From contig JAKQJM010000011.1 of assembly GCA_029561145.1 (NCBI GenBank), positions 1 through 56,952 of the forward strand: 56,952 bases of DNA, read 5' to 3'. The translations under genes were made by a program, and so were the position numbers. Positions 21,286 through 45,772 of this stretch are shown in pieces; position 1 is the first letter of the stretch; each line of letters opens with the position of its first letter. Origin of the DNA: Pseudomonadota bacterium. Lineage in GTDB: Bacteria; Pseudomonadota; Gammaproteobacteria; Xanthomonadales; Rhodanobacteraceae. Below the pieces are notes generated by a model. That model was not told the DNA's origin, made no database searches, and saw only the letters and a list, made by a program, of their open reading frames with translations.

Positions 21286-22251
21286 ATGAAGATCGCTCCG
21301 ATGGTGACTGTGCTTTGCGCGGTGATCCTGACGTGTCCATTCGATGCTCACGCCGGCGGATCGGCGAACCCGAGTTGTGCCAACTCGGACAAGGTCGTGC
21401 GCTTTGACTTCACCGGAGCGCAACAATCGTTCGTCGTTCCGGCGAATGCAATCAGTGCTCTCTATATCGAAGCGAACGGCGCCCAGGGCGGTTCCGGTCA
21501 GCTGGGAGGGAATGGGTCCGTGGGCGGCGAGGGTGGGCGAGGCGGTTTCGTTTCCGGAAACCGGGCAGCCTCTTCGGGCACGACGCTGAACATCTTCATA
21601 GGTGGACAGGGCACCACGACTCTTGGTGGCTTCAACGGCGGTGCAGATGGTGGAAATTCCAATGCAGGCGGCGGCGGCGGCGCGACCGACATTCGGGTCG
21701 GAGGCGTTGCGCCCGGCAATCGAATCCTCGCGGCGGGTGGCGGTGGCGGTGGTGGTCGTGGCGGTTGCGAGGCCAGCACTGTGGCCGGCGGCAATGGCGG
21801 CGCGAGCGGTCAGTCTGGCGCGGACGGCACCAGCGCGCCGACCTCCGGTGGCGTTGCGGGTGGCGGCTCGGGTGCCGTGGGTACGGCGGGGGGTGCAGCG
21901 GGATTGGGCTGTGCGGGCTTTCTCGGTACGAATGGGCTGACCAGCGTCGACAGCACGGGCGGCGCCGGCGGTTCCGGCCAGGCCTGCTGCTGCTTCAGCG
22001 CGCAGAGCATTCCCGCAGGTGGCGGTGGTGGCGGTGGCTTTCTCGGCGGTGGCGGCGGCGGCGGCGGATCCGCCGGCACGCCCGGTTGTTCCGGCAACGA
22101 CAAGGGAGCCGGTGGCGGCGGCGCGGGCGGTACCAATTTTACCGGCGGGCTCACCAATGCGTCGGTTACGGCTGCCTCGAACTTCGGTAACGGGAATGTT
22201 CTCATCTGCTACATATCAACGGATCTGATCTTCAAGAACGGCTTCGACTGA
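21286..22251 (+). CDS. Secreted glycine-rich protein with C-terminal IFKNGFD tail
   Basis: From ATG 21286 (AGGGGAA upstream) the protein is 321 residues. A signal peptide (MKIAPMVTVLCAVILTC, cleavage near AHA) is followed by a beta-rich segment (VRFDFTGAQQSFVVPA). A long glycine-dominated region then has runs of six or more glycines, scattered cysteines (a QACCC cluster) and TDIRVGG. Such Gly-rich domains occur in large secreted and surface proteins. The chain ends STDLIFKNGFD, the [IL]FxxGF[DE] tail also found on four other exported proteins in this window. No enzymatic motif is present; a structural or matrix role is inference. Confidence 0.8.
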   Translation: MKIAPMVTVLCAVILTCPFDAHAGGSANPSCANSDKVVRFDFTGAQQSFVVPANAISALYIEANGAQGGSGQLGGNGSVGGEGGRGGFVSGNRAASSGTTLNIFIGGQGTTTLGGFNGGADGGNSNAGGGGGATDIRVGGVAPGNRILAAGGGGGGGRGGCEASTVAGGNGGASGQSGADGTSAPTSGGVAGGGSGAVGTAGGAAGLGCAGFLGTNGLTSVDSTGGAGGSGQACCCFSAQSIPAGGGGGGGFLGGGGGGGGSAGTPGCSGNDKGAGGGGAGGTNFTGGLTNASVTAASNFGNGNVLICYISTDLIFKNGFD

Positions 22252-22483
22252 TTCGAGCGGCCCGTTCCGCTGCTCGTTCGCGTTCCGCGGTGCATCGCGT
22301 GCGCGAAAAGCACCGGACAGGTTGAATCCGGGCAGCGGACGTAGCGCAGCAGGTGCCGAGCCTCGCGATGCCGGGCCGGCAAGGTCTGTGCTCGCCGTGA
22401 TTTCCCCGGTGCCGTATCGTTCGCGCACTGGACGTTCCGCGGCGTGCGTCGCCTGCGTCATTCCCCACCTGGCAGGGTTGATC

Positions 22484-23572
22484 ATGGTTCCACCGACCAA
22501 GCGTGCCGCGAAACCATCGGACCAATCGCGCCGGCAGGATGCCCCGCGATCGATCAACCTGGCACTGCAGGGTGGCGGTTCGCACGGAGCATTCACCTGG
22601 GGCGTGCTTGATCGGCTGCTCGAGGACGGTCGAGTCACGTTCGACGGCATTTGCGGCACGAGTGCCGGCGCAATGAATGCCGTACTCGTCGCACACGGAC
22701 TCATGCACGGCGGAAGCGAAGGCGCGCGCGCCAGCCTCGCGAATTTCTGGGGACGCGTCGGACAGATGGGTGCGATGCTCAATCCGGGTGCGGCGCTGCT
22801 GGCCGGCAACCCGATCGCGAATTCCGGTTCGGACCCGATCCTCGCGACCCAGCAATGGGCGATCGAATCGTTCACACGCACGTTTTCGCCATACCAGTTC
22901 AATCCGCTCAACGTGAATCCGCTGCGCGACCTGCTTGCCGGTTGCGTCGATTTCGACGCCCTGCATCACTGCGATCACGTCAAGTTGTTCCTGTGCGCGA
23001 CGAACGTTCGCAGCGGCAAGGTGCGCATCTTCGACAACGCGGCGATGTCGGTCGATGCGGTCATGGCATCGGCCTGCCTGCCACACCTGTTCCACGCCGT
23101 CGAGATCGACGGCGAGCACTACTGGGATGGCGGCTACATGGGCAACCCCGTGCTCTATCCCTTGTTCTACCAGACAGCGACGCGTGATGTGGTCGTCGTC
23201 ATGGTCAACCAGATGTGGCGCGACGAGGTGCCGACGACCTCGGCGGGGATCGAGGATCGACTGAACGAGATCAGCTTCAACTCATCGCTGATGCGCGAGA
23301 TGCGAGCAGTCGAGTTTGTCAGCCGCCAGTTGACCGAAGGCTGGTTGAAACCCGAGTACGCCAAGCGCATGCGCCACATACTCGTGCACCTGATCCGAGC
23401 CGACGCCTTCATGGGCACCCTGTCGGCAGCGAGCAAGATCAGTACCGATACGCACTTCCTCGCCAGCCTTCGCGATCTTGGGCGGGCCTCGGCCGAACAA
23501 TGGTTGAACGCGCATCATGCGGACCTCGGCCGGCGCAGCACGGTCGATCTGCGCCGCGAATTTCTCGACTGA
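22484..23572 (+). CDS. Patatin-like phospholipase
   Basis: From ATG 22484 the protein is 362 residues. The patatin hallmarks are the oxyanion loop LALQGGGSHGAFTWGVLDRLL, the nucleophile motif GTSAG with S60, and the catalytic aspartate in YWDGGYMGNP (D215), which together form the Ser-Asp dyad. The longer frame upstream (to 22322) adds arginine-rich sequence without family similarity. No signal peptide is seen, so it is likely cytoplasmic or membrane-associated. It should hydrolyse acyl esters of phospholipids or related lipids. The gene stands apart from its neighbours. Confidence 0.9.
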   Translation: MVPPTKRAAKPSDQSRRQDAPRSINLALQGGGSHGAFTWGVLDRLLEDGRVTFDGICGTSAGAMNAVLVAHGLMHGGSEGARASLANFWGRVGQMGAMLNPGAALLAGNPIANSGSDPILATQQWAIESFTRTFSPYQFNPLNVNPLRDLLAGCVDFDALHHCDHVKLFLCATNVRSGKVRIFDNAAMSVDAVMASACLPHLFHAVEIDGEHYWDGGYMGNPVLYPLFYQTATRDVVVVMVNQMWRDEVPTTSAGIEDRLNEISFNSSLMREMRAVEFVSRQLTEGWLKPEYAKRMRHILVHLIRADAFMGTLSAASKISTDTHFLASLRDLGRASAEQWLNAHHADLGRRSTVDLRREFLD

Positions 23573-23638
23573 ATTTCGCGTGTCGCTGCGCGTGGCGGAA
23601 GTCGTCCGCTTCCATCATGGTTCCGGGTGCTGCGTCGA

Positions 23639-24094
23639 TCAGAGCAATCGGCTCATGAACACGCTGTGCCGGTCCACGACGTAGTCGGCGAACGGATCGC
23701 ACGCGACGAAACCGAAGCGCGCGTACATCGCGCGGGCCGGTTCGAACGCGGCCATCGATCCGGTTTCGAGGCTGAGTCGTCGATAGCCGCGCTGCTTCGC
23801 CACCGCGAGCATGTGGCCGAGCAGGGCCGCAGCCACTCCCTGGCGTCGACAGGCATCGGCCGTGCGCATCGACTTGAGCTCGGCGTGCCCGGCATCGAGT
23901 TCCTTCAGCGCGCCACAACCAAGCAGCCGCTCACCATCCCAGGCACACCAGAACGTGATTTCGGGTTGGCGCAGTGCATCGATATCCAGGGCATGAACGC
24001 TTTCCGGAGGGGAATGGAGGGCCATGCTCTGCAGATGCTGGTTGAGCAGGTCGTGAACGGCGGGGCTGTCCAGATCGTCGGTACGGATATCCAT
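23639..24094 (-). CDS. GNAT-family N-acetyltransferase
   Basis: The 151-residue protein starts MDIRTDDLDSPAVHDLLNQH and contains the acetyl-CoA-binding motif A region ELKSMRTADACRRQGVAAALLGHML, with the R-x-x-G-x-A pyrophosphate loop, then GYRRLSLETGSMAAFEPARAMYARFGF. This matches the YsnE-like branch of GNAT. The frame continues to 24604, but that part overlaps the start of the divergent carboxypeptidase gene. The acceptor is unknown; it lies convergent with the patatin gene. Confidence 0.88.
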   Translation of the reverse strand: MDIRTDDLDSPAVHDLLNQHLQSMALHSPPESVHALDIDALRQPEITFWCAWDGERLLGCGALKELDAGHAELKSMRTADACRRQGVAAALLGHMLAVAKQRGYRRLSLETGSMAAFEPARAMYARFGFVACDPFADYVVDRHSVFMSRLL

Positions 24095-24244
24095 GAAAAA
24101 TCCGGTTCGGGTGGCGGTTGGGATCTGTTTGCGGCGGAGTCGCATTGCTGCGTTGCCGCAGGATTTCATCGCAGTTGCCGTCGTCGGATCAAGCGCTTTG
24201 TGCTGCTGTAATATGCCGGGCTTTGCCAACCCGGAAGCCTGTAC

Positions 24245-26698
24245 ATGCGCATCCTGTTGTTCGCTGCGGTCCTTGTCTCGTGCGTCGTCAGCGACGTCAA
24301 TGCCGGGGAATGGGTCATCGACGCAAGGTGGCAGGATACTTCCGAACTGGCGCGGATCGCGCCGAACTTCCAGCATCTCAAGGTCGATCGCAAGAATCAT
24401 GTCGCGTCGCTGATTGCGGATGATGCCCAGCTCGCTGTCCTCGACGAGCTGGGCGTCGCCTACTCGGTCGATGTGGTGGGCACGGCGAACATGCGCACGT
24501 TCTACGCCGAGGCGTTCAACGTGACTCGAGCGATTCCGGGTTACGCGTGCTATCGCACCGTCGAAGAAACCTACGCGACGATGGACCAACTGGTGGCGAC
24601 GCATCCGACGCTCGCCAGGGCGATCGATATCGGGCCCACCTGGCAGCGCACCCAGAATTCGTCACAGGGTTATCAGATGCGCGTTCTGCGCATTGGCAAT
24701 TCCGCGACGGATGCGAGTATTCCGGACAAGCCCGACATGGTCGTGTTCAGTTCGATCCATGCGCGCGAATACGCGCCAGCCGAGGTCAATACGCATTTCG
24801 CCGAATGGCTGCTCGACAACTACGGGACCGACCCCGAAGCGACGTGGCTGGTCGATCACGAGAACTTCCACCTGATCCTGCAGGCCAATCCCGATGGCCG
24901 AAAGAAGGCGGAAACCGGGCTCTCCTGGCGCAAGAACACGAATACGGCGTCGGCGAGTTGCGGCAACAATTCGGGCATCGACCTCAATCGCAACTTCCCG
25001 TTCCACTGGGGCATCGTGCCGAACAACGGCGGCTCCAGCGGTTCGATCTGCAACGAAACCTATCGCGGACCGCTGTCCAACTCCGAACCGGAGACGGCCA
25101 ACCTGGTCAGCTACGTGGCCGGCGTGTGTGGCAACGACGGCGTCTGCAGCGGTGGCGTGCTGCCTGATCGTCGCTCGGGTCCGCTGCATCCGGCGAACGT
25201 CAACGGCGATGGCGGCGCCGCGGCGCCGGATGACTATCCGGGCATGTTCCTCGACGTGCACAGCTATGCCGAACTCGTGCTCTGGCCGTGGGGCGATACC
25301 TCGAGCGCGGCGCCGAATGGCGCTGCGCTGCGTGCTTTCGGCAAACGCCTCGCGTGGTTCAACCATTATTCACCGGGCCAAGCCGACACGCTCTACCCGA
25401 CCGATGGAACCACCGACGACACGTTTTACGGATTGCTCGGCGCTCCTTCCTATACCTTCGAGCTCGACGAGGCTTTCTTCGAATCCTGTGACGCGCTGGT
25501 CAACACGACAATCCCGCGCAATCTCGAAGCGCTGCGCTACGCCGCACGAAACCTGCACGCGCCTTATCGATTGCCCGCTGGACCGGATGTCACGCAACTG
25601 GTCGCGAGCCCCGACCTGCTCAGCGCAGGAACGGGCATCACGTTGACCGCACGCTTCGACGACACGCGGTACAGGGAAGAAGACAGCGCAACCGAACCGG
25701 TGCACAACATTGCATCGGCGGCGGCCTATCTGGATGGCCTGCCGTGGGAAGGCGCGTTGTCGATCGCCCCACTTGGGCCGGTCGACGGTGCCTTCGACAG
25801 CCCGGTCGAGGAAGCTGGCGCGGCCATTTCCACGACCGGGCTTTCGAACGGCAAACACCTGCTCTTCGTGCAGGGCAGCGATACCTCGTCGCAGGCCGGC
25901 AGCCCCAATGCCGTATTCATCGAAGTCGCCGAGCCGGGCGAAATTGCCACTCTGGCCGGCACGATCAGCGCGTTGCAGGGCGGTGTGCCGCTGGCTGCAA
26001 GCGTGCGGGTCAGTAATGGCAGCACCGGGGAAAGCCGCAACGCCCTGAGCAGCGCAAGCGATGGCGGCTACCTGCGCCCGATGTATCCCGGCAATGTCGA
26101 CATCCATGTCGATGCGCCAGCCGGGTATCTAGATGAAGATCTCAACGGGGTCAGCCTGACCGGTGGCCAGACGCAGGTGCGCAATATCGCCTTGTACAGT
26201 TCATGCGCGGTGTTCGTGGATGATGTGGAATCCGGCGCGAATGGCTGGACCGCAGCGTCGCCGTGGGTCCGCTCGAGCAGCGTGGGCGGAAACGCGGGCT
26301 TTGCATGGGCGACACCGAACTATGGCAACAACCAGAGCAGCAGCCTGTCGCGAACGCTCGATCTGACCGGCTATGCCGAAAGCAGCCTGAGCTTTGACGA
26401 TCGTTGTGACACCGAGTCCGGCTACGACTTCGGGCGCGTCGAGATCTCGGTCAATGCCGGCGGCAGCTGGACCTCGCTCTACCAGTGCTCGGGCCGCACG
26501 AGTTGGCAGCACAATCGCCTGACCCTGCCTGCAAGCACCGACAATCTCGCCGGCCTGCGCCTGCGCTTCCGCCTGACCAGCGACGGCAATACGACCCGTC
26601 CCGGCGGATGGGCCATCGACAACATCGTCCTCGAATCCGGCGGCGCGCAATGTCGCGCCGACCAGATCGACCGCATCTTCACGCACGGATTCGAATAG
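24245..26698 (+). CDS. Secreted M14 zinc carboxypeptidase with IFTHGFE tail
   Basis: The 817-residue protein has a signal peptide (MRILLFAAVLVSCVVSDVNA), a short propeptide-like domain, then an M14 peptidase domain. Zinc ligands are H172 and E175 in SSIHAREYAPAE and H339 in FLDVHSYAELVLWPWG; the catalytic glutamate is E406 in YTFELDEAFFES. The region SGIDLNRNFPFHWG holds the substrate-binding Asn-Arg pair. After about residue 440 come beta-rich accessory domains, including a carboxypeptidase-regulatory-like segment (GTISALQGGVPLAASVRVSNG) and a domain like those of MAM/immune-inhibitor proteins (CAVFVDDVESGANGWTA). It ends DQIDRIFTHGFE. It should cleave C-terminal residues from external peptides. 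Confidence 0.92.
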   Translation: MRILLFAAVLVSCVVSDVNAGEWVIDARWQDTSELARIAPNFQHLKVDRKNHVASLIADDAQLAVLDELGVAYSVDVVGTANMRTFYAEAFNVTRAIPGYACYRTVEETYATMDQLVATHPTLARAIDIGPTWQRTQNSSQGYQMRVLRIGNSATDASIPDKPDMVVFSSIHAREYAPAEVNTHFAEWLLDNYGTDPEATWLVDHENFHLILQANPDGRKKAETGLSWRKNTNTASASCGNNSGIDLNRNFPFHWGIVPNNGGSSGSICNETYRGPLSNSEPETANLVSYVAGVCGNDGVCSGGVLPDRRSGPLHPANVNGDGGAAAPDDYPGMFLDVHSYAELVLWPWGDTSSAAPNGAALRAFGKRLAWFNHYSPGQADTLYPTDGTTDDTFYGLLGAPSYTFELDEAFFESCDALVNTTIPRNLEALRYAARNLHAPYRLPAGPDVTQLVASPDLLSAGTGITLTARFDDTRYREEDSATEPVHNIASAAAYLDGLPWEGALSIAPLGPVDGAFDSPVEEAGAAISTTGLSNGKHLLFVQGSDTSSQAGSPNAVFIEVAEPGEIATLAGTISALQGGVPLAASVRVSNGSTGESRNALSSASDGGYLRPMYPGNVDIHVDAPAGYLDEDLNGVSLTGGQTQVRNIALYSSCAVFVDDVESGANGWTAASPWVRSSSVGGNAGFAWATPNYGNNQSSSLSRTLDLTGYAESSLSFDDRCDTESGYDFGRVEISVNAGGSWTSLYQCSGRTSWQHNRLTLPASTDNLAGLRLRFRLTSDGNTTRPGGWAIDNIVLESGGAQCRADQIDRIFTHGFE

Positions 26699-26899
26699 CT
26701 GCCGCTTAACCCGCCGATGCGGTGGGCGATTCGGGCATGACGGGAGTGATACGGATCATCGCTGGCGCGCGACACAGGCGCGGTGCGATGCGTTGCGGTC
26801 TGCGCGGGCGAGGATCAATCGCTGGAGACGAAGCGTAGCGGGTGCGATGTCAAAGCCGGCCGCTTTCCGGCGCGGTGCTGGACGCGACTTCTCGCGCGA

Positions 26900-35754: not shown

Positions 35755-38394
35755 ATGCCCTACATTAGCGTCATCGCCTTCATGATCGCGACGATCAGCT
35801 TGGCGGTGTCTCCCGCTCAGGCGCAGAATCTTGCTTGGCGCTCTGCTGTGACGATGGATGTGCCGGCGGGTGCAGGTATCGACACTGCCAACGCGATGCT
35901 GGACGATCCGGCCTCGAACCGCCTCGTCGCGATGATCACGAACGAGAGCGCATACGCGGAGAACTACCGCTATCGCGCCATGGCGACCGATACCTCGACA
36001 GGTGACCTGGTCTGGTCAGCCGAACTCGGAAGCGAATGCCAGACGCGCAGCGGAGCGTACAGCTTGGTTGTGCCCATCGCGGGTGGCGATGTCGTGGTCG
36101 TGGCGCAGGCGATCGGTTCTACCAGTATTGGTTATGGATTCACCTGCGTGATGCGCCTGCGGGGAGCGGATGGAAGTGTCGTGTGGTCGCGCTCGCTGAG
36201 CGCGTCGGGCGCCGTCCTCTATGTCAACGCACTTGTGCCAGATGTCGATGGGAATTTGTTCGGGGGCGGAAGAAAAGGTGCCAACGCCTATTCGTTGAGG
36301 TTGGATGCGGGGACGGGTCAGACGCTCTGGGAACAAGACATTGCACCGACCAGCGGTTTCTCCTCGGCAAGGATTATCGCTGCTGCCGCTGGGTCGACTA
36401 ACGCCGCCGTGCTGCAATTGGTCGAGCAGGTGACGACCGTGCCGACGCATCAGCGACTGTTGGGAATCGACCCGCGCGCGGGGACTTCGCGATGGACGCA
36501 ACCACGCTGCATGGACGGTGCTGCGACTACCCAGAATGCGTCGAACGACATCAGGCTGCGCATGTTGGCCGATGCCACTTTCGAGTTCGTTGCAAGTTGC
36601 GGGAATGGGGCCGAAAGGAGAGTGGAACTTGGTCGCGTCAATGCGTCAACCGGTACGATTCTGTGGCAGCGTGAGTTGCCGCAGTCGAATCTATATCGGG
36701 CCTTCATCGACACCAATGGCAACTTTCTTCTGGACGGGACGCTGCTGGTCGATGGCAACGAGGTCGGTATCTCGCGCCTCGACGCGGTTTCGGGAGACCT
36801 GCAATGGTCGCTGCCGAGGCCATCCGTGCCACCAGGCGTTCCGCCGTATGTGACGAACCGGTTGCTGGCAACCGACACGCATGTGCATGTGCTTGAGTTG
36901 TTCGTTGAGTATTCCAGCTACGTGACCTCAGCAGCGGTTGCAACCTATTCGGCAACGATGGGCGAGTTTCTTGGGCGTTTCGACGCGGGTTTTCCGAGTG
37001 CCGGCTCCGCCCTGTGGCCCGGCCTGTCGATGCGCGCGCGCGGATCCGGCGAGGTCCTGATCACGGCATTGAGTGCCCAGAATCTCAACGCGGGAGCGAG
37101 CCTGTTCGAGGTGCGGCTGAACGTTTACGCCCAGCTATCGGCGTGGTCGAGGAAGTTGCCACTCATGGCTCCGCGGCCATTCGTCCCGCTGTCGGCTGAT
37201 GAGTCGATGCGCCAGATGGCGTGGAGCTCGGCACAGGAGCCGGGCATCGTGCTGGGAGGCAGTGGTACTAACCAGAATAACTATACCTATCCAAGAGTTG
37301 CCAAGATCAGTGCACTCGACGGTCGCGTGCTTTGGCGCTGGCAGACCGATTCGCGGGCGCGCGGATTCGTCTCTTCCGTCTTCGACGATGCGGCCGGCAA
37401 CATCATTGTTGCCGGTTCGAACGGATGGGACGATCCCACGCTTCTGCTCGCCAAGCTCGATGGCGCCGATGGAAGTTCGATCTGGGAATCCAGCGTGCCC
37501 GAACCTCGGCCGGCCCTCGATGCCATTTCTGGCTCTGACGGAACGATCGTGGTCTTGCTCGGTCATGTCGAAGCGGAGTCCGGCTTGCCGAACCGTGTTG
37601 CCAAGTACTCGGCGTCGGACGGCAGTCCGGTCTGGAGTACCGCAATTCCCGACAGCGTGGAAGGGGATATCGGAGAATCCCGCCTCGCACCCGGCCAAGG
37701 CGGATCAGTTCTTGCCATGACCCGGTTCCGGGCATCATCCAGCGTGTTTGGCTCGCAAGTTGCCCGATTCAACAACACGAATGGCGAGATGCTTTGGCTG
37801 CGCAGGCTCCAGAACAGCGATGGTTCCGGACCTATCGCCCTGTTGTCGGCAGCCAATGGCGATGTCATTGCGGCAAATCACGGCTTCGCATGGCGGATCG
37901 GTGGCGCGACCGGCGTCATTCTCTGGCAGAAGGCATTGCCTCACCAAGCCTGGTCGATGATCGTCGATGCGCAAGACCAGCTTTTGATTGGCGGAACGCA
38001 GAACGGTCAGCGCGCCATCTCGCGAATCAATCCTGCGAACGGGACGGCGCTATGGACGACATTGATTCCGATCCTCAATGACGAAGGCCATCCGGAGCTG
38101 GTTTCGAAACTCTCCCATTCCTATGACGACAATGTCTTCGCCGTGGGGGGCGACGAGTATGGCAACGACATGCTTGCGAAATTGTCGCCATTGAACGGCA
38201 GCTTGATCTGGCAGACCGTGAGCGGAGTCCGTGAACCGTTCTCTGATATGTCGGGTTTTCCGGTCTCGATGATCGAGGCGCCCGATCACAATCTGTTCGT
38301 GAGCGGAATGGATAGCCGTTCGCCCTCGACTTGGGCCGTGAGCAAGGTGACGGGAAGTTTTGCCGATGGCATCTTCGCGACGGGGTTCGACTGA
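35755..38394 (+). CDS. Secreted PQQ-type beta-propeller protein with IFATGFD tail
   Basis: From ATG 35755 (AAGGAGC upstream) the protein is 879 residues with a signal peptide (cleavage near PAQAQ). The body repeats short blade-like units ending in a tryptophan motif, for example GDLVWSAELG, GSVVWSRSLS, GQTLWEQDIA, GTILWQRELP, GRVLWRWQTD, GSSIWESSVP, GEMLWLRRLQ, GVILWQKALP, GTALWTTLIP and GSLIWQTVSG. This is the PQQ/pyrrolo-quinoline-repeat fold. No catalytic residues of PQQ dehydrogenases are evident, so a binding or adhesive role is possible. Codon use looks less GC-rich than its neighbours, and the gene is bracketed by a 40-bp repeat, both signs of acquisition. It ends DGIFATGFD. Confidence 0.88.
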   Translation: MPYISVIAFMIATISLAVSPAQAQNLAWRSAVTMDVPAGAGIDTANAMLDDPASNRLVAMITNESAYAENYRYRAMATDTSTGDLVWSAELGSECQTRSGAYSLVVPIAGGDVVVVAQAIGSTSIGYGFTCVMRLRGADGSVVWSRSLSASGAVLYVNALVPDVDGNLFGGGRKGANAYSLRLDAGTGQTLWEQDIAPTSGFSSARIIAAAAGSTNAAVLQLVEQVTTVPTHQRLLGIDPRAGTSRWTQPRCMDGAATTQNASNDIRLRMLADATFEFVASCGNGAERRVELGRVNASTGTILWQRELPQSNLYRAFIDTNGNFLLDGTLLVDGNEVGISRLDAVSGDLQWSLPRPSVPPGVPPYVTNRLLATDTHVHVLELFVEYSSYVTSAAVATYSATMGEFLGRFDAGFPSAGSALWPGLSMRARGSGEVLITALSAQNLNAGASLFEVRLNVYAQLSAWSRKLPLMAPRPFVPLSADESMRQMAWSSAQEPGIVLGGSGTNQNNYTYPRVAKISALDGRVLWRWQTDSRARGFVSSVFDDAAGNIIVAGSNGWDDPTLLLAKLDGADGSSIWESSVPEPRPALDAISGSDGTIVVLLGHVEAESGLPNRVAKYSASDGSPVWSTAIPDSVEGDIGESRLAPGQGGSVLAMTRFRASSSVFGSQVARFNNTNGEMLWLRRLQNSDGSGPIALLSAANGDVIAANHGFAWRIGGATGVILWQKALPHQAWSMIVDAQDQLLIGGTQNGQRAISRINPANGTALWTTLIPILNDEGHPELVSKLSHSYDDNVFAVGGDEYGNDMLAKLSPLNGSLIWQTVSGVREPFSDMSGFPVSMIEAPDHNLFVSGMDSRSPSTWAVSKVTGSFADGIFATGFD

Positions 38395-38677: not shown

Positions 38678-40402
38678 TCAATAGCTGGCCGCAGCTTGCA
38701 TCGTTGCGGGATCGAAGCCGTCGCTGAACAGGGCATCGCGCAGGACGACGATCGCCATGTAAGCCGTATCCCTCGCGCCGACGGGATCAATGACACGCAC
38801 ACCGACCTTGACCTGCACAGGTTGCGCCGTGCCGGCTGCATAGGTCGCGCTGGCCGTGCTTGCGCTGGCATCGTCGAAGTCTCCATCGCCGTCGAGATCC
38901 CAGGCATAACCCAGCACGCCCGCTTCGGGATCAATGCTGTTGTCCGCGCTGAACGTGATCGCGCGCGGCGGTCCGTCCGCGGTCGAGCCGGCTTCGACGG
39001 CGATCGCCGCGGAGGGCGCAAGATTTCGCTGCGCGGGATTCGTGTCCCAGGAAATGCGACCGATGCGGCCGTTGTTGATATCGACGAAGAACACGTCGTC
39101 GCCGGGTCCGGTAGTCAGATCGACCAGGCCGAGATTGCCTTGCCCGAACAGCTCGGCGCTGCTGTCGGTGACTGGATCGGGAATGCCGTCCTGATCGGTG
39201 TCCTTGATCACGCGGATGCTGTTGTGGATGTAATCGGCGAAGAACAGCGCGTTGTGGTATGCGCTCGGCCAGGTTTCACCAGCGTAGAAGACAATTCCCG
39301 AAATTGCCTCGTTGCTGGTGTGCTGGTACGCGTAGAACGGCGCTGAAACCGGTGTGCGGCCGCCGCTGTCAGCATTCGCGTAGAGAGCCGCGCACAACGG
39401 GCGTGCGGTGTATTCGCTGACATGCGCGTGGTTCTCGAAACACGGCCAGCCGAAATTTCGAAGTCCCGGCGACGTTGTTGCATCCGGGATCAGGTTGATC
39501 TCCTCCCAACTGCGCCAGCCCACGTCGCCGATCCATATCTCGGAGGTACCCGGGCGCATCGTGAAGCGATACGGATTGCGCAGGCCGTAGGCGAGAATGC
39601 GGCGCGCATTGTCCGAAGCGCCTTCGATATCGGCCAGGGGATTCCCCGGCGCACCGCGGCCGCTGTCCGGATCGACCCGCGCGATCGTGCCGTTGAGCCA
39701 GACCTGGCCGGTGTATTGATCCTCGACTTCGAGTCCTTGCGCGCGCAAGGCGCCCCCCTGGTTTGCTGGCGAGCGCAGATCCGGCCAGTCCGGGTTGCCG
39801 ATCTGACCCCAATCGGCGTGGACAAAGGCCGCGCCATCGCCGCCGCCGACATACAGATAGCCATCGGCGCCGAAGCGCAGCGTGCCGATCGAATGGCTCG
39901 GATACTGCTGGTACCAGTCCTCGATCAGCACCTGTTCGTCGGTTGCGAGGTTTCCGCTGAGGGTCAGGCGCGAGAGGCGACCGCTGATCACGCAACCGGC
40001 GAAGTCCGCGGTCGGATTCGGGCAATCGCTTGCCGGCCAGCGCGGGGGCAGGTCGTTGAACAGGCCGCCGTTGAACGAGTACAGCACGTAGAAGTAGGGC
40101 CGCTCGGGAAAGCGCGGATCCAGTTCGAGGCCGAGCAGGCCGCGATCCTGATACTGGTGGACGATCGCACCGAGGTTGGCGATCTGCTCGGGCACGCCAT
40201 CGAGCAGGTTCCGGTACATCCAGATCCTGCCGGTCTTCTCGGCGACGAAGACCCGGCCATCATGGGCAAACCGGATCTGGGTCGGCTGGTCCCGGTTGCC
40301 GATCGGAAACGTGTGACGGAAATTGACTGTCGGCCAGGATTGCGCGCCTGCCGTCACTGGCGTCATGGCGATCAACAGGCTGAGCCAGCCACGCCAGTTC
40401 AT
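38678..40402 (-). CDS. Secreted glucose/sorbosone-dehydrogenase-like propeller with PKD-like domain
   Basis: From ATG 40402 the protein is 574 residues: signal peptide (MNWRGWLSLLIAMTPVTAGA), a six-bladed GSDH-type propeller, and a C-terminal PKD-like domain (APSAAIAVEA, then GYAWDLDGDGDFDD). Propeller markers are GLLGLELDPRFPERPYFYVL, RRILAYGLRNPYRF and EIWIGDVGWRSWEEINLI. Relatives include soluble PQQ-dependent aldose dehydrogenases, so oxidation of sugars is possible, but the PQQ and calcium ligands cannot be verified here. Near the end it has ALFSDGFD, the same tail as other exported proteins, but with ten extra residues (PATMQAAASY) after it. Confidence 0.88.
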   Translation of the reverse strand: MNWRGWLSLLIAMTPVTAGAQSWPTVNFRHTFPIGNRDQPTQIRFAHDGRVFVAEKTGRIWMYRNLLDGVPEQIANLGAIVHQYQDRGLLGLELDPRFPERPYFYVLYSFNGGLFNDLPPRWPASDCPNPTADFAGCVISGRLSRLTLSGNLATDEQVLIEDWYQQYPSHSIGTLRFGADGYLYVGGGDGAAFVHADWGQIGNPDWPDLRSPANQGGALRAQGLEVEDQYTGQVWLNGTIARVDPDSGRGAPGNPLADIEGASDNARRILAYGLRNPYRFTMRPGTSEIWIGDVGWRSWEEINLIPDATTSPGLRNFGWPCFENHAHVSEYTARPLCAALYANADSGGRTPVSAPFYAYQHTSNEAISGIVFYAGETWPSAYHNALFFADYIHNSIRVIKDTDQDGIPDPVTDSSAELFGQGNLGLVDLTTGPGDDVFFVDINNGRIGRISWDTNPAQRNLAPSAAIAVEAGSTADGPPRAITFSADNSIDPEAGVLGYAWDLDGDGDFDDASASTASATYAAGTAQPVQVKVGVRVIDPVGARDTAYMAIVVLRDALFSDGFDPATMQAAASY

Positions 40403-40424
40403 CCTCGCATTCCCGTCGGGCGCG

Positions 40425-41282
40425 CTACTCGCCGAGTTCCTCGCGCATGAACTCGGGCATCGACAGCGCCGACTTGTGGATCTCGGCGTTGTAATAGCGC
40501 GTGTGGAAACGCTTGGTCTGGGCGCCGCGCTCACGGAAATCGGAGAGATCGGCGCCCTTGCGCGCGAGGGTCGCGCTCCACCAGCCGGTCGGATAGCACG
40601 GCTGCGGGAAGGTCAGGGTACGAACGGCCTGGAAACCCGCCGTGCGCATCGCCGAGCGCATCGACTTGATCAAGCCGAGATGGGCCAGCGGCGATTCGCT
40701 CTGCTGGACGAAGATGCCGCCACTGCGCAATGCCTTGAAGCAGCTCGAATAGAACGCCGCGTTGAACAGGCCTTCGGCCGGACCCACCGGGTCGGTCGAA
40801 TCGACAATGACCATGTCGACCGATTCCGGCTCGCAGTCGGCCATGTACTTGATGCCGTCATCGAACAACAATTGCGCGCGCGGATCGCTGTTCGCCTCAC
40901 AGAGTTCGGGGAAATACTGTTCGGCCAGGCGCGTCACGCGCTCGTCGATCTCGACCTGCACCGCGTGTTCGACCACTTCGTGGCGCAACACTTCGCGCAA
41001 CGTGCCGCAATCGCCGCCGCCGATGATGACGACGCGCTTGGCGCGCGGATGGGTGAACAGGGCCGGATGCGACATCATCTCGTGATAGAAGAAGTTGTCG
41101 CGCGTGGTCAGCATCATGCAGCCGTCAATGACCATGAGCTTGCCCCAGTCGGTCGAGTCGTAGATCTCGATCGACTGGAACGGGGTCTGTTCGGCGTGCA
41201 GGCGCGCATGGGTGCGAAAGCCGATGGACGAGCCCGACGATTCGTGGGCTTCAGTGAACCAGCTTTGCTCGGGCGTGGACAT
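40425..41282 (-). CDS. speE: Spermidine synthase
   Basis: The 285-residue protein transfers the aminopropyl group of decarboxylated S-adenosylmethionine to putrescine. Signatures are VVIIGGGDCGTLREVLRH (nucleotide-binding loop), QVEIDERVTRLAEQYFPEL and VDMVIVDSTDPVGPAEGLF, which holds the catalytic aspartates. The length is typical. It is divergent from speA with a 271-bp gap, so polyamine synthesis from arginine and its final step lie together, though speB/aguAB and speD are not in the window. It is 22 bp from the start of the propeller gene on the same strand. Confidence 0.95.
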   Translation of the reverse strand: MSTPEQSWFTEAHESSGSSIGFRTHARLHAEQTPFQSIEIYDSTDWGKLMVIDGCMMLTTRDNFFYHEMMSHPALFTHPRAKRVVIIGGGDCGTLREVLRHEVVEHAVQVEIDERVTRLAEQYFPELCEANSDPRAQLLFDDGIKYMADCEPESVDMVIVDSTDPVGPAEGLFNAAFYSSCFKALRSGGIFVQQSESPLAHLGLIKSMRSAMRTAGFQAVRTLTFPQPCYPTGWWSATLARKGADLSDFRERGAQTKRFHTRYYNAEIHKSALSMPEFMREELGE

Positions 41283-41553
41283 ACGGACTTCCTTGATTTG
41301 GTTGGCTGCGTGCGCCTGGTCGAAGGCGGAAACGGTGGCTGCCGAATTGTAGCCGGTTGCCTGGATTTGCGCGCCGTCGGCGCGGCGCTGTCATAGATGA
41401 TTGACATTCCGGCCCTGTGGCATGGCCCAGTGGCGCGAAAGCAATGGTTACAATGCGCGCCCCGATCGATCCCGCGGCATGCGAGGCTTCCGATGGTCGG
41501 GGTACTTGCGTCCAGGCCTGCCGCTGCGACGTCGCTGCCTTCCGGAGGAAATC

Positions 41554-43443
41554 ATGAGCAAATCCTGGACTACAGACGACGCCCGCCACACCTATGCGAT
41601 TGCGAACTGGGGCGAAGGCTATTTCGATGTCGGCGTTGACGGCGCCATTATGGTCAAGCCACGCGCGGCGGACGGCCCCGCCGTGAGTCTGCCTGCCGTC
41701 GTCGAAGCAGCCCGCGCACTCGGATCGCGAATGCCATTGCTGGTGCGATTCGGCGACATCCTCAACGATCGGCGAGCGCGGCTGCAGGCGGCGTTCGCCA
41801 AGGTGATGGCCGATTGGGATTATGCAGGGGGCTACACCTCGATCTATCCGATCAAGGTCAACCAGCAGAAAAACGTAGCCGGCGAACTCGCTTCCGCCGG
41901 CGGCGATGGTTTTGGTCTCGAAGCCGGATCGAAGCCCGAGCTGATGGCGGTACTCGCGCTCGCGCGTCGTGGCAGCGTGGTCATCTGCAATGGTTACAAG
42001 GATCGCGAATACATCCGTCTTGCGCTGATCGGACGCAAGCTTGGCCTCGAGATCTTCATCGTCATCGAGAAGCCCTCGGAGTTGCGCTATGTGATCGAAG
42101 AGGCGAAATCGCTCGGCGTCGAGCCGCTGCTCGGTGTGCGCATGCGCCTGAAGAGCCTCGGTGCCGGCAAGTGGCAGAACTCGGGCGGTGACAAGGCCAA
42201 GTTCGGTCTCACCCCGCGCCAGTTGCTGACCCTGATCGAGCAACTCAAGGCGGCCGGGCTTTCGCATGCGCTCAAGCTGCTGCATTTCCACATGGGATCG
42301 CAGATGTCGAATGTGCGCGACATTGCGCGCGGCATGCGCGAAGCCGTGCGCTATTTCGTCGAACTTTCGCAGCTCGGATTGCCGATTCGCTACATGGATG
42401 TCGGCGGCGGTCTCGGCGTCGATTACGAAGGCACGCGTTCGCGCTCGGAATGTTCGATCAACTACGGGCTCGATCAATATGCCTCGAGCGTCGTCGGCGC
42501 GCTGGCCGAAGCCTGCGCCGAATACAAGTTGCCGCATCCGCATGTGTTGACCGAATCCGGTCGCGCACTGACTGCACATCATGCCGTGCTCGTGGTCAAT
42601 GTCAGCGAGATCGAGGAATCCCCGCGCGGCGCCGTGCCCGAGGCGCGTGCGGACGAACCAGCCGTGCTGCGCCGGCTGCGTGAAGTCCATGCCGAAATCG
42701 ACGTGCGCCCGCCGACCGAGCTCTATCACGAGGCGCAGTACCATCTTGCCGAGGGCCAGTCGCTGTATGCGCTCGGCCAGCTCTCGCTCGCCGATCGCGC
42801 GCAGCTCGATGATCTGTATTACGCGATCGTCAACGCCGTGCGCGCGCGCCTGAAGCCTGACGAGCGATCGCACCGCCAGGTGCTCGACGAGCTCAATGAG
42901 ACCCTGGTCGACAAGTATTTCGTCAACTTCTCGGTGTTCGAGTCGGCGCCCGACATCTGGGCAATCGATCAGGTATTTCCGATCGTGCCGATCCGCGGCC
43001 TCGATCGGGAACCGGATCGGCGTGGCGTGATCGCCGATCTGACCTGCGATTCGGATGGCCGCATCGATCACTACGTCGACGCCGACGGCGTCGATGTCAG
43101 CCTGCCCCTGCATGCCCCGGTGCACGGCGAAACCTATCTGCTCGGCCTGTTCATGGTGGGTGCGTACCAGGAGACGCTCGGCGACATCCACAACCTCTTC
43201 GGCGACACCGATGCGATCAGCGTCAAACTCACCGGCGATGGCTATGAAATCAGCCATCAGCGCCGCGGCGACAGCACCGATCTCATGCTCGACTATGTCG
43301 GCTACGACCTTTCGGCGTTGCGCGAAGAGTATCGCGCCAAGATCGTCGCAGCCGGCATTGCCGGCGATGAGGCTATCGCACTGGCCGATACGCTCGAAGC
43401 CGGCCTGACCGCCTACACCTATCTTGCGGAGACTGCGGAATGA
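41554..43443 (+). CDS. speA: Biosynthetic arginine decarboxylase
   Basis: The 629-residue PLP enzyme converts arginine to agmatine, the first step of putrescine synthesis in this route. GGAGGAA precedes the ATG at 41554. The PLP lysine lies in SIYPIKVNQQKNV; the glycine loop is DVGGGLGVDYEGTRS; the active-site region ends TESGRALTAHHAVLVVNV. The C-terminal part has SVFESAPDIWAIDQVFPIVPIR and GAYQETLGDIHNLFGD, both conserved in SpeA. It is slightly shorter than E. coli SpeA (658 residues). The following gene overlaps its stop by ATGA. Confidence 0.95.
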   Translation: MSKSWTTDDARHTYAIANWGEGYFDVGVDGAIMVKPRAADGPAVSLPAVVEAARALGSRMPLLVRFGDILNDRRARLQAAFAKVMADWDYAGGYTSIYPIKVNQQKNVAGELASAGGDGFGLEAGSKPELMAVLALARRGSVVICNGYKDREYIRLALIGRKLGLEIFIVIEKPSELRYVIEEAKSLGVEPLLGVRMRLKSLGAGKWQNSGGDKAKFGLTPRQLLTLIEQLKAAGLSHALKLLHFHMGSQMSNVRDIARGMREAVRYFVELSQLGLPIRYMDVGGGLGVDYEGTRSRSECSINYGLDQYASSVVGALAEACAEYKLPHPHVLTESGRALTAHHAVLVVNVSEIEESPRGAVPEARADEPAVLRRLREVHAEIDVRPPTELYHEAQYHLAEGQSLYALGQLSLADRAQLDDLYYAIVNAVRARLKPDERSHRQVLDELNETLVDKYFVNFSVFESAPDIWAIDQVFPIVPIRGLDREPDRRGVIADLTCDSDGRIDHYVDADGVDVSLPLHAPVHGETYLLGLFMVGAYQETLGDIHNLFGDTDAISVKLTGDGYEISHQRRGDSTDLMLDYVGYDLSALREEYRAKIVAAGIAGDEAIALADTLEAGLTAYTYLAETAE

Positions 43444-44315
43444 GCGACATCAAGGCCGGCTTCGTCGGGCTCGGCGCGATGGGACGGCCGATGGCCGGCC
43501 ATCTTTCCCGCGCCGGGCTGCTCGCGTCGGCCTGGACACGTACGCCGGCGAACACCCGGGCGGTCGCCGTCGAACTCGGTCTCGACGAACCGGCGAGTCT
43601 GGCCGAGCTGGCCGCGCGCTGCAACGTGATCGCCTTGTGCGTGCCGGCGGATGCGCACGTGCTGGCCAATGTCGAAGTGATTGCCACGAACGCACAGCCA
43701 GGAACGATCGTCATCGATCATTCGACAGTCTCCTCGGTGACTGCAGTCCAGGCATGCGAGCGCATGCGCGTGGCGGGTGGCGAGTTCATTGATGCGCCGG
43801 TTTCCGGTGGCGTCGAGGGAGCCCGCAACGGCAAGCTGTCGATCATGGTCGGCGGCGATGCGTCGGCGCTCGAACGGGCGCGACCCGTGCTCGAATGCTA
43901 TGCCGCGAAGATCAGTCACATGGGCGGAATCGGCGCCGGCCAGAACACCAAGGCCGTCAACCAGGTGCTCGTCGCCGGGATTGCCCAGGCGGTCTGCGAA
44001 GGTCTCGCGCTCGGTGAGGCGCTCGGCCTTGATGCCGACAGTCTGATCCCGACACTGCTTGCCGGTGCGGCAGGCAACTGGTTTCTCGACAAGCGCGGCG
44101 CGACGATGCTGCGCGACGAGTTCCAGGTCGGTTTCAAGCTCGGCCTGCTGCACAAGGACCTCAAGATCGTCCGGGAATTGGCCCGCGATGCAGGCACCGA
44201 TCGCAGTGGCATCGAGAAATCGCTGGCCGACTATGCGGTCCTGATGGCGCAGGGGCATGCCGACGACGATATTTCGGCCCTGATCCGCCTGAAGCGGGCC
44301 GTTGCGACACGCTGA
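43440..44315 (+). CDS. 3-hydroxyisobutyrate dehydrogenase-family oxidoreductase
   Basis: The 291-residue protein has the NAD(P)-binding GFVGLGAMGRPMAGHL at the N-terminus, the substrate motif FIDAPVSGGVEGARNG, and the catalytic lysine K171 in GAGQNTKAVNQVL, with GNWFLDKR and GLLHKDLKIV farther on. The family includes 3-hydroxyisobutyrate, tartronate semialdehyde and succinic semialdehyde reductases. It overlaps speA by 4 bp (ATGA), so the two are translationally coupled. A role in polyamine breakdown (succinic semialdehyde reduction) is possible but is inference. Confidence 0.92.
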   Translation: MSDIKAGFVGLGAMGRPMAGHLSRAGLLASAWTRTPANTRAVAVELGLDEPASLAELAARCNVIALCVPADAHVLANVEVIATNAQPGTIVIDHSTVSSVTAVQACERMRVAGGEFIDAPVSGGVEGARNGKLSIMVGGDASALERARPVLECYAAKISHMGGIGAGQNTKAVNQVLVAGIAQAVCEGLALGEALGLDADSLIPTLLAGAAGNWFLDKRGATMLRDEFQVGFKLGLLHKDLKIVRELARDAGTDRSGIEKSLADYAVLMAQGHADDDISALIRLKRAVATR

Positions 44316-44461
44316 GATTGGCCTAACGCCTTGTTTACACGCGCAGGGATAGGCTGCGGGCCGACTCTGCTTGTGGCGAATCGATCACAATGCCACGCGC
44401 GCGCGGTGGCATGGCGCGCTTCCCCACGCGACACTCGCCATTCCCCCTGGAGGTTTTGTCC

Positions 44462-45772
44462 ATGCGATTTCCCCGACATCTCGTGACCCTGGCATTCCTG
44501 TTTGCAGGTGCCGCAGCGACCGCACAGACCATCCCCGGACTTTCGGTTTCCGCCGTTCCGGGCAGCTACTCCGAACCTGTCGCCGTGCGCGCGCCCAACG
44601 ATGGCAGCGGACGGATCTTCATCGTGCAGAAGAACGGGCTGATCAGGATCGTCAAGAACGGCGTCGCGCTCGGCACGCCGTTCCTCACGGTTCCGGTCAC
44701 GACCAACAGCGAAAGCGGCTTGCTGGGACTCGCGTTCCATCCAAACTTCGGCAAGATCGGCCTGCCGCACAACGACGAGTTCTACATCGCATTCACGCGT
44801 CCCAGCGCCGATCCGCGTCTCGGCACCACGCCGGACCAGGCTATCGCGCGCTACACGGTTCCCTCGCTCGCTTCCGATGTGGCCAACCCCTCGGGGACGC
44901 TCGTCTTGCGCGTGCCGGACCTCGCCGGCAACCACAACGGCGGTGACATCCATTTCGGTCCGGACGGCTATCTCTACTATTCGATGGGCGACAGCGGCGC
45001 GCAGAACAATCCGTACCACTTTGCCGAATGTCTGTGGAAGAAGCCGGCGACTACGGGCAGCGCCTGTGGCGACACGTCCGGTACCCAGTACTACCTGCTC
45101 GGCAAGATGCTGCGCGTTGATGTCGACACGCGTGGCGGCGCGGTGACTGCCGACATGTGCGCCTCGTCGGGCATCAGTCCTGCCCAGTACGCAATCCCGC
45201 CGAGCAATCCGCACGTCGGCACGAACAACACCTGCGATGAAATCTTCCTGCATGGTTTCCGCAATCCGTGGCGATTCAGCTTCGACCGCCTGACCGGCGA
45301 TCTGATCATCGGCGATGTCGGTCAGGGCAGCTATGAGGAAGTGACCGTGCAAGCCGCCGGAACGGGTGGCAGCGATCACGGCTGGAGTCGCTGCGAGGGT
45401 CGTCACTACTTCGACACCGCGGGTTCCGGAACCACCTGTCCTGCAACCACGGCCACGGTCGCGCCAGTGATCGAATACAGCCACTCGTTCGGATGTGCGG
45501 TCTCCGGCGGTTATGTCTACCGCGGACCGTCAATGCGCCTTCGCGGCACTTATTTCTACGGCGATTCCTGCGTGGGTGCGCTTTGGTATGCGACCGCCGG
45601 CGCAGCGCAAACGGACTGGTCCCCGTCGGGCATCAAGAACACCAACCTGACCGTCGGCGCTCCATACGGATACGGTGAGGACGAATACGGAAACCTCTAC
45701 CTCGCGCAGTCGAACGGCGTGGTCAACAAGCTGGTTTCGGACTTCATCTTCGACGATGGTTTTGACGACTGA
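44462..45772 (+). CDS. Secreted glucose/sorbosone-dehydrogenase-like propeller with FIFDDGFDD tail
   Basis: From ATG 44462 the protein is 436 residues with a signal peptide (MRFPRHLVTLAFLFAGAAAT, cleavage near AQT). Blades carry ESGLLGLAFHPNFGKI, GNHNGGDIHFGPDGYLYYSMGD, FLHGFRNPWRFSFDRLTGDL, IIGDVGQGSYEEVTVQ and DHGWSRCEGRHY, the GSDH pattern; the histidine in GNHNGGDIHFG is the usual place of the active-site base. Six or more cysteines may form disulfides. It ends VSDFIFDDGFDD. It may oxidise sugars with PQQ, but ligand residues need alignment to confirm. It starts 146 bp after the reductase gene. Confidence 0.88.
   Translation: MRFPRHLVTLAFLFAGAAATAQTIPGLSVSAVPGSYSEPVAVRAPNDGSGRIFIVQKNGLIRIVKNGVALGTPFLTVPVTTNSESGLLGLAFHPNFGKIGLPHNDEFYIAFTRPSADPRLGTTPDQAIARYTVPSLASDVANPSGTLVLRVPDLAGNHNGGDIHFGPDGYLYYSMGDSGAQNNPYHFAECLWKKPATTGSACGDTSGTQYYLLGKMLRVDVDTRGGAVTADMCASSGISPAQYAIPPSNPHVGTNNTCDEIFLHGFRNPWRFSFDRLTGDLIIGDVGQGSYEEVTVQAAGTGGSDHGWSRCEGRHYFDTAGSGTTCPATTATVAPVIEYSHSFGCAVSGGYVYRGPSMRLRGTYFYGDSCVGALWYATAGAAQTDWSPSGIKNTNLTVGAPYGYGEDEYGNLYLAQSNGVVNKLVSDFIFDDGFDD

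Follow-up and report, generated by a model that had tools for sequence, protein, structure and literature searches.

The window, which is the whole stretch of 56,952 nucleotides analysed here from a genome of the Rhodanobacteraceae (order Xanthomonadales; Dokdonella, to judge by named homologues), raises the question of why several exported proteins should end in nearly the same seven residues. The five tails with a common motif that an earlier note had read there are all in frame, and each closes an open reading frame (ORF):

21286..22251, + strand: Gly-rich exported protein of 321 residues with a signal peptide (ORF; without a Pfam match)
22228..22248, + strand: tag IFKNGFD (context STDL-IFKNGFD), 0 residues after it (ORF reading)
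24245..26698, + strand: M14 zinc carboxypeptidase of 817 residues with CarboxypepD_reg and MAM-like domains (Pfam; CarboxypepD_reg match slightly below the cut-off)
26675..26695, + strand: tag IFTHGFE (context DR-IFTHGFE), 0 residues after it (ORF reading)
35755..38394, + strand: PQQ_2/BamB-like propeller with a signal-peptide-like start (Pfam; start re-read as ATG 35755, gene caller's initial start 36622)
38371..38391, + strand: tag IFATGFD (context DG-IFATGFD), 0 residues after it (ORF reading)
38678..40402, - strand: GSDH propeller of 574 residues with a PKD-like stretch (Pfam; PKD_4 match below the cut-off)
38711..38731, - strand: tag LFSDGFD (context DA-LFSDGFD), followed by 10 residues (ORF reading)
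44462..45772, + strand: GSDH propeller of 436 residues (Pfam)
45746..45766, + strand: tag IFDDGFD (context DF-IFDDGFD), followed by 1 residue (ORF reading)

The bodies that carry these tails had been counted as five unrelated ones, but the two GSDH propellers are relatives, so that the window holds at most four. Among 14 loci homologous to the M14 gene, ten have the motif, two (L214 and L215) lack it and have a different end, and the script could not read the other two (L211 and L216). AF2 modelling of the M14 protein from ten sequences (mean pLDDT 67, pTM 0.42) gives residues 809-817 a pLDDT below 50, which places the tail beyond the confident part of the model and says no more.

The pattern is real and far more widespread than the five genes of the window. 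Across the whole genome, the motif occurs at 60 sites without a stop anchor, versus 2 for the reversed control, and at 15 sites with one, versus 1; a generalised tag pattern gives 53 sites versus 0. A 1.05 Mb sample of the same genome (778 called genes, in stretches picked around motif sites) contains 56 in-frame motifs, of which 49 are no more than 20 residues from the C-terminus, four are among the first 70 residues and three are elsewhere; six scrambled or changed motifs have 1-5 matches each, 0-2 of them C-terminal. The 49 C-terminal copies are 49 distinct DNA strings using all four glycine codons, and thus conservation is evidently due to selection on the protein level. These strings and the reversed controls rule out chance or a DNA repeat as the origin of the tag, even though in one other genome (G446) the pattern without a stop also picks up an unrelated DNA repeat. 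A special glycine codon was also considered and rejected: usage in the tag departs from the genome average, yet glycine before phenylalanine elsewhere departs similarly (GGA, 243 of 954), and the difference that remains is modest (p 0.006).

The consensus is [DE]-x-[IL]-F-x-[DN]-G-F-[DE], followed by 0-15 residues, 15 being the limit of the search. The motif ends the protein in 70 of 155 tails, while the other 85 carry further residues, at most 15 within that limit; 133 end at the motif or no more than four residues beyond it. An aspartate or glutamate stands two residues upstream in 115 of the 155, a position that was not part of the selection. The tag is carried by many unrelated exported proteins, mostly at the C-terminus, at times near the mature N-terminus and at times in tandem. 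Of the proposed C-terminal recognition signal, the shared signal and its mostly C-terminal position therefore stand, but the N-terminal tags rule out a purely C-terminal one. Nor is the tag limited to the wording GFE, since lineages have dialects of their own (GFE, RFE, SFE).

Long forms of the tag (IFADGFESGDVSSWSMTCP* in L201, and IFADGFETGDTSAW opening a longer stretch in L202) resemble what we take to be the first strand of a jelly-roll or MAM-like domain (IFxDGFESGDxxxW). They could suggest that the tails are the stump of such a strand, passed around without function, but this is very improbable, because 133 of 155 tails stop at or just after the motif, the bodies are many and unrelated, and sites fall away with a secretion system described below. 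A tag that arose from such a strand could still have a function today.

GlyGly-CTERM, PEP-CTERM and MYXO-CTERM signals consist of a C-terminal signature motif, a transmembrane helix and a basic tail. None of the 155 tails is built in this way, the 70 without a residue after the motif and the 85 with at most 15 alike, and no match to a tail model was seen among the NCBIfam matches covered, which rules out a sortase-like signal and agrees with the earlier note that the tail resembles neither a sortase nor a PEP-CTERM signal. Among all NCBIfam matches of 13 tagged proteins up to E 10, and among the first 25 of 40 families matched by 51 tagged proteins, none falls on the tail and none is a type IX secretion (T9SS) sorting domain. 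The type IX C-terminal domain of Bacteroidetes likewise addresses many secreted proteins from their C-terminus, but it is folded, about 80 residues long and removed, whereas the tag has 7-9 residues and is not always C-terminal. One weak PorZ match (E 0.006) covers residues 124-237 of a 947-residue tagged protein, far from its tail; with no T9SS sorting-domain match among the families covered, a type IX signal is ruled out. A published description of the tag was not found in the open-access literature, in keeping with the suggestion that the tail is not a described signal.

Tagged proteins are predominantly exported. A crude signal-peptide rule is passed by 37 of 51 tagged versus 255 of 701 untagged genes of the window's genome (2 tagged and 24 untagged genes at contig edges left out), so that neither of the refutations named in the earlier note, no enrichment among secreted proteins or a non-exported majority, was borne out. 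Of the 14 tagged genes that fail it, at least five have, on inspection by eye, a signal-peptide-like start beyond the reach of the rule, and another, a PilZ protein (L084), is probably a chance motif. The C-terminal signals of type I secretion go without an N-terminal signal peptide, which does not fit these proportions, whereas type II substrates possess a Sec or Tat signal peptide, as the tagged proteins do under the crude rule. A tagged DUF1501 protein has, by eye, a Tat-like start (RRDFLKG), and thus the tag probably acts after folding. Two of the 51 tagged proteins match the NCBIfam LapA model, and LapA is T2SS-dependent in Legionella according to a passage of PMC6617341; by such matches, some tagged proteins are related to known type II cargo. 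Around the tagged genes of this genome, where 156 of 725 untagged genes have a tagged gene at most two genes away, four neighbour families are weakly over-represented (3/3, 3/4, 4/7 and 5/12 members, uncorrected p 0.01-0.09), none convincingly after correction.

Many Xanthomonadales possess a second type II secretion system, here T2SS-A, with a PDZ domain in its GspC. By-eye naming of the ORFs next to model matches gives gspC-D-E(-F) and, apart from it, a gspG-N operon. The window's genome has gspC-D-E (L219), the full operon of the other system, B (L220), and a T2SSK match with two pseudopilin genes in a region that the gene caller resolved in part (L299); the gspG-N operon is clear in other genomes (L300-L302). 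T2SS-A therefore looks complete, as type II export from the window's genome would demand, with names assigned partly by eye. GspC-A exceeds the cut-off of the T2SSC model in 7 of 7 cases and that of the PDZ model in five, falling slightly below it in two (the protein of the window's genome scores 26.1 versus 27 bits), whereas the counterpart in the B operon matches neither model in 3 of 3.

The tag family is restricted to Xanthomonadales among the genomes searched: none of 271 genomes elsewhere in the class, surveyed for tags only, has more than five stop-form matches. Within the order, T2SS-A was scored by a GspD-A HMM (above 600 bits in 85 genomes, with shorter fragments in G421, G408, G445 and G412, the last at 171 bits, counted as positive), the machines profiled being the secretin families and T2SSK, a short model that also matches short ComEA-like ORFs and long other ORFs. 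Counted as pattern sites rather than individually read genes, with controls of up to 12 in AT-rich f9 genomes, at least ten sites of the generalised pattern are present in 83 of 89 A-positive genomes (median 44) versus 6 of 71 A-negative genomes (median at most 2), or in 79 of 85 versus 10 of 75 if the four fragment genomes are scored as absent; a Fisher test on these counts ignores phylogeny. The same pairing is found inside families (f and g denote numbered families and genera of the order): A-positive genomes of f1 have 37-132 sites and A-negative ones 0-5, and the corresponding numbers in f2 are 69 and 0-2. An intermediate secretin, presumably Xcs-like, is present in eight f2 genomes, which have 0-2 sites.

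On a GspD-B tree of 45 genomes, the A label switches four times, and T2SS-A was thus lost about four times in the order. After three of the losses (four f2 rows, G016 and a six-row f1 clade, counted without its member G011) 0-2 sites are left, and after the fourth, in f8, sites are thinned to 0-23. A genus that is A-positive and seemingly tagless, g35, has a variant (in G340, F-x-D-R-F-E at almost every listed place) at 22-85 sites versus 0-2 in the control in six of seven genomes, and at 4 versus 2 in the seventh (G386, 1.8 Mb); both f7 genomes have a variant at 13-15 sites versus 0-1. Of the six A-negative genomes with at least ten sites, four are fragmented or incomplete (G417, 530 contigs; G350, 90% complete; G360, 77%; G416, 88%, 400 contigs). 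The other two, G363 and G393 of f8, are 97-98% complete and have C-terminal tags; they are not explained by the pairing with T2SS-A, the exceptions to which are mainly in f8. The A-positive genomes with fewer than ten sites are G448, G379, G420, G386, G364 and G436, and G364 and G436 have nine stop-form sites each.

Because the tag tracks T2SS-A and is largely missing without it, it is probably an address label read by that system. We put at about 0.55 the probability that this linear tag marks folded periplasmic proteins for T2SS-A in Xanthomonadales, a reading that rests on comparison of genomes. Tagged proteins would cross the inner membrane by Sec, in some cases by Tat, and fold in the periplasm, where the part of T2SS-A that receives cargo, most likely GspC-A with its PDZ domain and/or the N-domains of GspD-A, would bind the flexible tag, whether C-terminal or, in some proteins, near the mature N-terminus; T2SS-A would then carry them across the outer membrane to the outside of the cell. 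The export part of the earlier suggestion of an uncharacterised export or surface-attachment pathway probably holds, but the pathway is probably not an unknown one, given a distribution that matches a PDZ-type type II system; what is undescribed is the tag.

Since the co-occurrence rests on about four independent losses, any gene lost together with T2SS-A fits equally. Another machine might therefore read the tag, for instance a receptor in the periplasm, a protease or a translocon of the outer membrane that has yet to be described, and the cross-genome profiles covered secretins and T2SSK only, while G363, G393 and the like keep tags without GspD-A. This is nevertheless quite improbable, as the pairing is the same in the f1, f2 and G016 losses, site numbers do not overlap inside f1 and f2, and part of the cargo resembles type II cargo.

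If GspC-A is the receptor, it would not as a rule act through classical PDZ binding, in which the ligand has a free C-terminus at the bound residue: residues after the motif in 85 of 155 tails and the N-terminal tags mean that such binding cannot be the rule, although binding of an internal peptide is possible. At the thresholds used, no PDZ column of GspC-A co-varies with the switch from G to R in g35; three GspD-A columns change with it, in one clade only.

Haft and Varghese reportedly described GlyGly-CTERM together with rhombosortase in 2011. The present tag resembles that system in being C-terminal on differing exported proteins, with a dedicated machine alongside and a link to type II secretion, but it lacks the transmembrane helix and basic tail, may be followed by residues, is also N-terminal and tandem, occurs dozens of times per genome and accompanies a T2SS itself. 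By analogy with GlyGly-CTERM after rhombosortase processing, the tag could hold cargo on the surface via a receptor, T2SS-A exporting that cargo through other structural signals; tags would vanish with T2SS-A because cargo no longer reaches the surface. Choice-of-anchor domains, which by name adjoin differing anchor signals, are present on tagged proteins (Q in five and J in three of the 51), as are matches to the rhombosortase-dependent M36 model (5 of 51) and a myxosortase-dependent one (2 of 51); where positions are given (residues 771-798; another up to 1172), the M36-type matches fall in the domain preceding the tag, and these models, with MXAN_5453, are named body families. In passages of the respective papers, protease activity of Wenzhouxiangella AB-CW3 is cell-bound and absent from the medium (PMC7691419), which may be comparable, and GlyGly-CTERM of Vibrio VesB acts jointly with a separate T2SS signal (PMC13393428). 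Anchoring is still unlikely, for no transmembrane or basic segment follows the motif, and tags also lie near the N-terminus and in tandem.

Recruitment by T2SS-A has partial precedents. Against it, T2SS of this general type function elsewhere, to our knowledge, without such a tag. Passages of PMC7949064 and PMC12369372 state that type II substrates are without a common linear signal. Loop 3 of Dickeya PelI, as described in part of PMC7949064, is a flexible nine-residue stretch read by GspC and GspD of the Out T2SS; the tag is also short and flexible, with the same reading proposed, but loop 3 is one structural loop of one protein, and the tag is one linear motif that recurs in each genome on dozens of proteins, many unrelated. 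In Vibrio, the EpsC PDZ domain is needed for VesB (a passage of PMC12369372), and GspC selects cargo there through its PDZ domain as proposed here, but that text places the information in an Ig fold, with only one substrate strongly concerned. The tag is tentatively, at slightly less than even odds, the first portable linear type II secretion tag, with 7-9 residues at either end, in GFE, RFE and SFE dialects, sufficing for unrelated folded proteins.

How a T2SS chooses its cargo is an open question, and a tag with dozens of copies per genome, dialects and natural losses makes it testable by a simple peptide experiment in environmental bacteria that can be cultured. If the reading is true, the tag would allow prediction of exoproteomes across the Xanthomonadales and could provide a secretion handle for biotechnology.

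The tag, a linear motif of the form [DE]-x-[IL]-F-x-[DN]-G-F-[DE] that is mostly C-terminal on exported proteins, was found in frame at all five places in the window where the earlier note had reported a common tail; its description of the five bodies as unrelated holds except that two of them, the GSDH propellers, are relatives. A search of the full genome (3.6 Mb, 149 contigs) by DNA pattern, with the reversed pattern as control, gave 15 sites of [IMLF]F..GF[DE] directly before a stop codon (1 in the control) and 60 sites of the same pattern without the stop (2 in the control). In a gene-level sample (1.05 Mb including the window, picked around sites, 778 genes called), 56 motifs are in frame: 49 within 20 residues of the C-terminus, four among the first 70 residues and three at other positions. 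Of the four, the one on a PilZ protein looks fortuitous. In this sample, each scrambled or altered motif matched 1-5 times, with 0-2 of the matches C-terminal. The 49 C-terminal tags are encoded by 49 different DNA sequences.

Tag anatomy was derived from 155 tails taken from several of the order's families (ORFs of at least 120 residues, motif within 15 residues of the end), found by a search that fixed both phenylalanines and restricted position 5 to G, R or S. Two residues upstream of the motif is D or E (115 of 155); position 1 is I or L (139), position 4 is D or N (120), position 5 is G (140), R (11) or S (4), and the last residue is E (111) or D (44). The motif is followed by no residues in 70 tails, 1-4 in 63 and 5-15 in 22. 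Tandem tags occur at loci L197, L198, L131 and L314, and tags near the mature N-terminus in the window's own genome (L024, L027, L075), G040 (L186, L192, L194), G038 (L127) and G363 (L160). In an AF2 model of the window's M14 peptidase (ten sequences; mediocre, mean pLDDT 67), residues 809-817 have pLDDT below 50. The tail variants IFLDDFEA (L194, 13766-14230) and LIFENDFEILN (L228, 1049-2944) exist, so the true number of tags is probably above the pattern counts. Tails starting with FF instead of IF, such as FFMTGFENESP, are found in one genus of family f10 (G413; L159, L164, L169, L184). A long form, IFADGFE(S/T)GDxSxW (L202, 2069, minus strand; L201, 8319, plus strand), resembles the first strand of jelly-roll/MAM-like domains, and the tag may have originated from such a strand. 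The tag was compared with T9SS, T1SS and CTERM signals by their general features. Searches of an open-access library with tag strings listed no relevant paper by title, and no description of the tag was found among the papers listed there for sorting signals, T2SS signals or the taxa.

At least one motif directly at a stop codon (stop-form) was found in 64 of 274 genomes sampled across the class. Three of the 274 belong to this order; the 271 others have at most 5 such matches per genome (controls up to 3), and their true-stop cases have at most 56 open codons upstream (16 of 30 fetched loci read). Within the order, the stop-form is spread patchily over 79 of 160 genomes. Homologs of the M14 peptidase were found in Dokdonella, other Xanthomonadales-type records and one metagenome-assembled genome (MAG) filed as Alcanivoracaceae, and the motif is present at 10 of 14 such loci (12 of the 14 read; L213 has 27 residues after it), the homologs of Vulcaniibacterium (L214) and Lysobacter (L215) ending without it. 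By these homologs, the window's genus is probably Dokdonella. The Alcanivoracaceae-filed MAG (L212, tail IFMHGFE) is the sole tagged record outside the order by name; possibly it is misfiled or reflects a transfer. In G446, copies of a DNA repeat (ATATTTCATGAAGGGTTCGA, exact or nearly so; e.g. L158, L163, L168) are dispersed and match the no-stop pattern, thus inflating the no-stop counts of this genome.

The tag is associated with a second type II secretion system (T2SS-A), whose GspC has a PDZ domain. Tagged genomes tend to encode two secretins and untagged genomes one (TIGR02517 profile, 50 genomes), and the two types are split by well-supported branches in a tree of 20, in which the divergent second secretin of G361 falls on the A side with a long branch. 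An HMM built from 14 type A secretins (GspD-A) exceeds 600 bits in 85 of 160 genomes. Fragments only (171-535 bits) in G421, G408, G445 and G412 were scored positive because of their high score per aligned position; eight intermediate f2 genomes (427-532 bits) were scored negative, and the remainder fall below 190 bits. With a generalized tag pattern, at least 10 sites were found in 83 of the 89 A-positive genomes, where the median is 44 (control: median 2, maximum 12), versus 6 of 71 A-negative genomes (medians 2 and 1), or 79 of 85 versus 10 of 75 if the four fragment genomes are called absent. Within families f1 and f2, the ranges of site counts in A-positive and A-negative genomes are fully separate. 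The Fisher test of the association (p = 2.5e-30) ignores relatedness; a safer basis is a tree of 45 genomes built from GspD-B, the other secretin, and on this tree the A label changes four times, as forced by well-supported branches. These changes are read as losses of T2SS-A because each of the 12 families includes one or more A-positive genomes. After loss, 0-2 sites remain in four f2 entries, G016 and a six-entry f1 clade (no count for G011). The fourth group is f8, where 0-7 sites were counted in five of its seven genomes, 10 in G393 and 23 in G363. G053, with no secretin match, has 2 sites versus 3 in the control. The f8 genomes G363, G416 and G393 lack GspD-A and keep 10-23 sites (L303-L309, L318), with C-terminal tags read in G363 and G393; either T2SS-A was lost recently or the tags have another reader.

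Genus g35 and family f7 possess T2SS-A and seemed tagless with the glycine pattern. With a glycine-free pattern, six of the seven g35 genomes gave 22-85 sites against 0-2 in the control (4 versus 2 in the seventh), the two f7 genomes gave 13-15 against 0-1, and A-negative G013, G021, G047, G042 and G053 gave 2-6 against 0-5. Among the places listed, nearly all G340 sites read F-x-D-R-F-E. ORFs end in IFQDRFEQP, IFADRFE and LFADRFE in G340, and in VFQDGFEGARTGVVFADGFE and IFSDSFEGP in G041, most of those read having a visible signal peptide. Thus, the rule held where failure was possible, since these seemingly tagless A-positive groups carry variant tags.

Loci of T2SS-A
L219: gspC-gspD-gspE of the window's own genome, adjoining trxA and rho (neighbors named by eye)
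L300, L301, L302: second locus, gspG-H-I-J-K-L-M-N, clear
L299: second locus of the window's own genome, only partly resolved by the gene caller

In G024 (after one intervening gene), G050, G045 and G339, gspC-gspD-gspE is followed by gspF, ftsE and ftsX-like genes. GspC-A exceeds the cut-off of the T2SSC model in seven of seven cases and of the PDZ model in five (26.1 in the window's own genome and 23.5 in G040, versus 27); both models were unmatched by the B-operon counterpart in three of three. A GspC HMM matched 41 of 46 further loci, two partially or weakly (G332, G361x), with no match in G432 and G448 (fetch cut by contig ends), the f9 loci G403 and G441, and the Xcs-like G424. In PDB searches, GspC-A of G024 matched OutC (6hcg) best, then DegQ/DegP PDZ entries and GspC PDZ entries (2i4s/2i6v), and GspD-A of the window's own genome matched T2SS secretins.

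Tagged proteins would cross the inner membrane by Sec or Tat and then fold, and the flexible tag would be recognized in the periplasm by T2SS-A, which would transport the protein out. The main rival explanation gives the tag a surface-anchoring role after export by T2SS-A. For recognition by T2SS-A, the candidate receptor is the GspC PDZ domain or GspD, given their published roles (PMC7949064, PMC12369372). Simple PDZ binding is disfavored, as residues often follow the motif and no PDZ change in GspC-A accompanies the RFE wording of the tag.

Many folds were found among 51 tagged proteins scanned with NCBIfam and Pfam (first 25 of 40 and first 25 of 45 families, respectively). Those listed include subtilases (5), M28 (2), LapA-model (2) and reprolysin (2) peptidases, choice-of-anchor domains Q (5) and J (3), GSDH (3), PHB depolymerases (2), DUF1800, DUF1501, endonuclease I, FG-GAP, sortilin-like and other proteins; five of the 51 match a rhombosortase-dependent M36 model. 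LapA is reported to be T2SS-dependent in Legionella (PMC6617341), and by homology this kinship to known cargo supports a putative type II export of tagged proteins. In each of five neighboring DUF1800/DUF1501 pairs (Pfam names for L027 and L072, others named by similarity or eye), one partner is tagged:

L019, 12946-16096: degenerate N-terminal tag on the DUF1800 protein
L027, 13050-16170: N-terminal tag on the DUF1800 protein
L072, 15960-19240: C-terminal tag on the Tat-type DUF1501 protein
L192, 8685-11715: N-terminal tag on the DUF1800 protein
L194, 10388-13676: N-terminal tag on the DUF1800 protein

This suggests a single tag per exported complex and, because one partner of each pair is tagged, fits recognition of folded complexes.

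In T2SS-B, the other system, an Xps-like operon precedes the gene of an NPDG protein of the NPDGLGQVLIYPYYT type:

L220, 11769-13376: NPDGLGQVLIYPYYT-type protein
L222, 12870-14351: same type
L231, 12343-14046: same type
L348, 13677-15245: same type
L352, 7221-8807: same type
L356, 7153-8796: same type

XpsC (formerly XpsN) reportedly has a 2P domain with a single predicted helix (PMC11981180). The protein behind T2SS-B fits NpdA, an S-layer protein reportedly encoded behind a 12-gene gsp cluster (PMC10765051), in a study that includes Dokdonella in its table. These bacteria thus seem to have two type II secretion systems, one located next to an S-layer gene and one associated with the tagged proteins.
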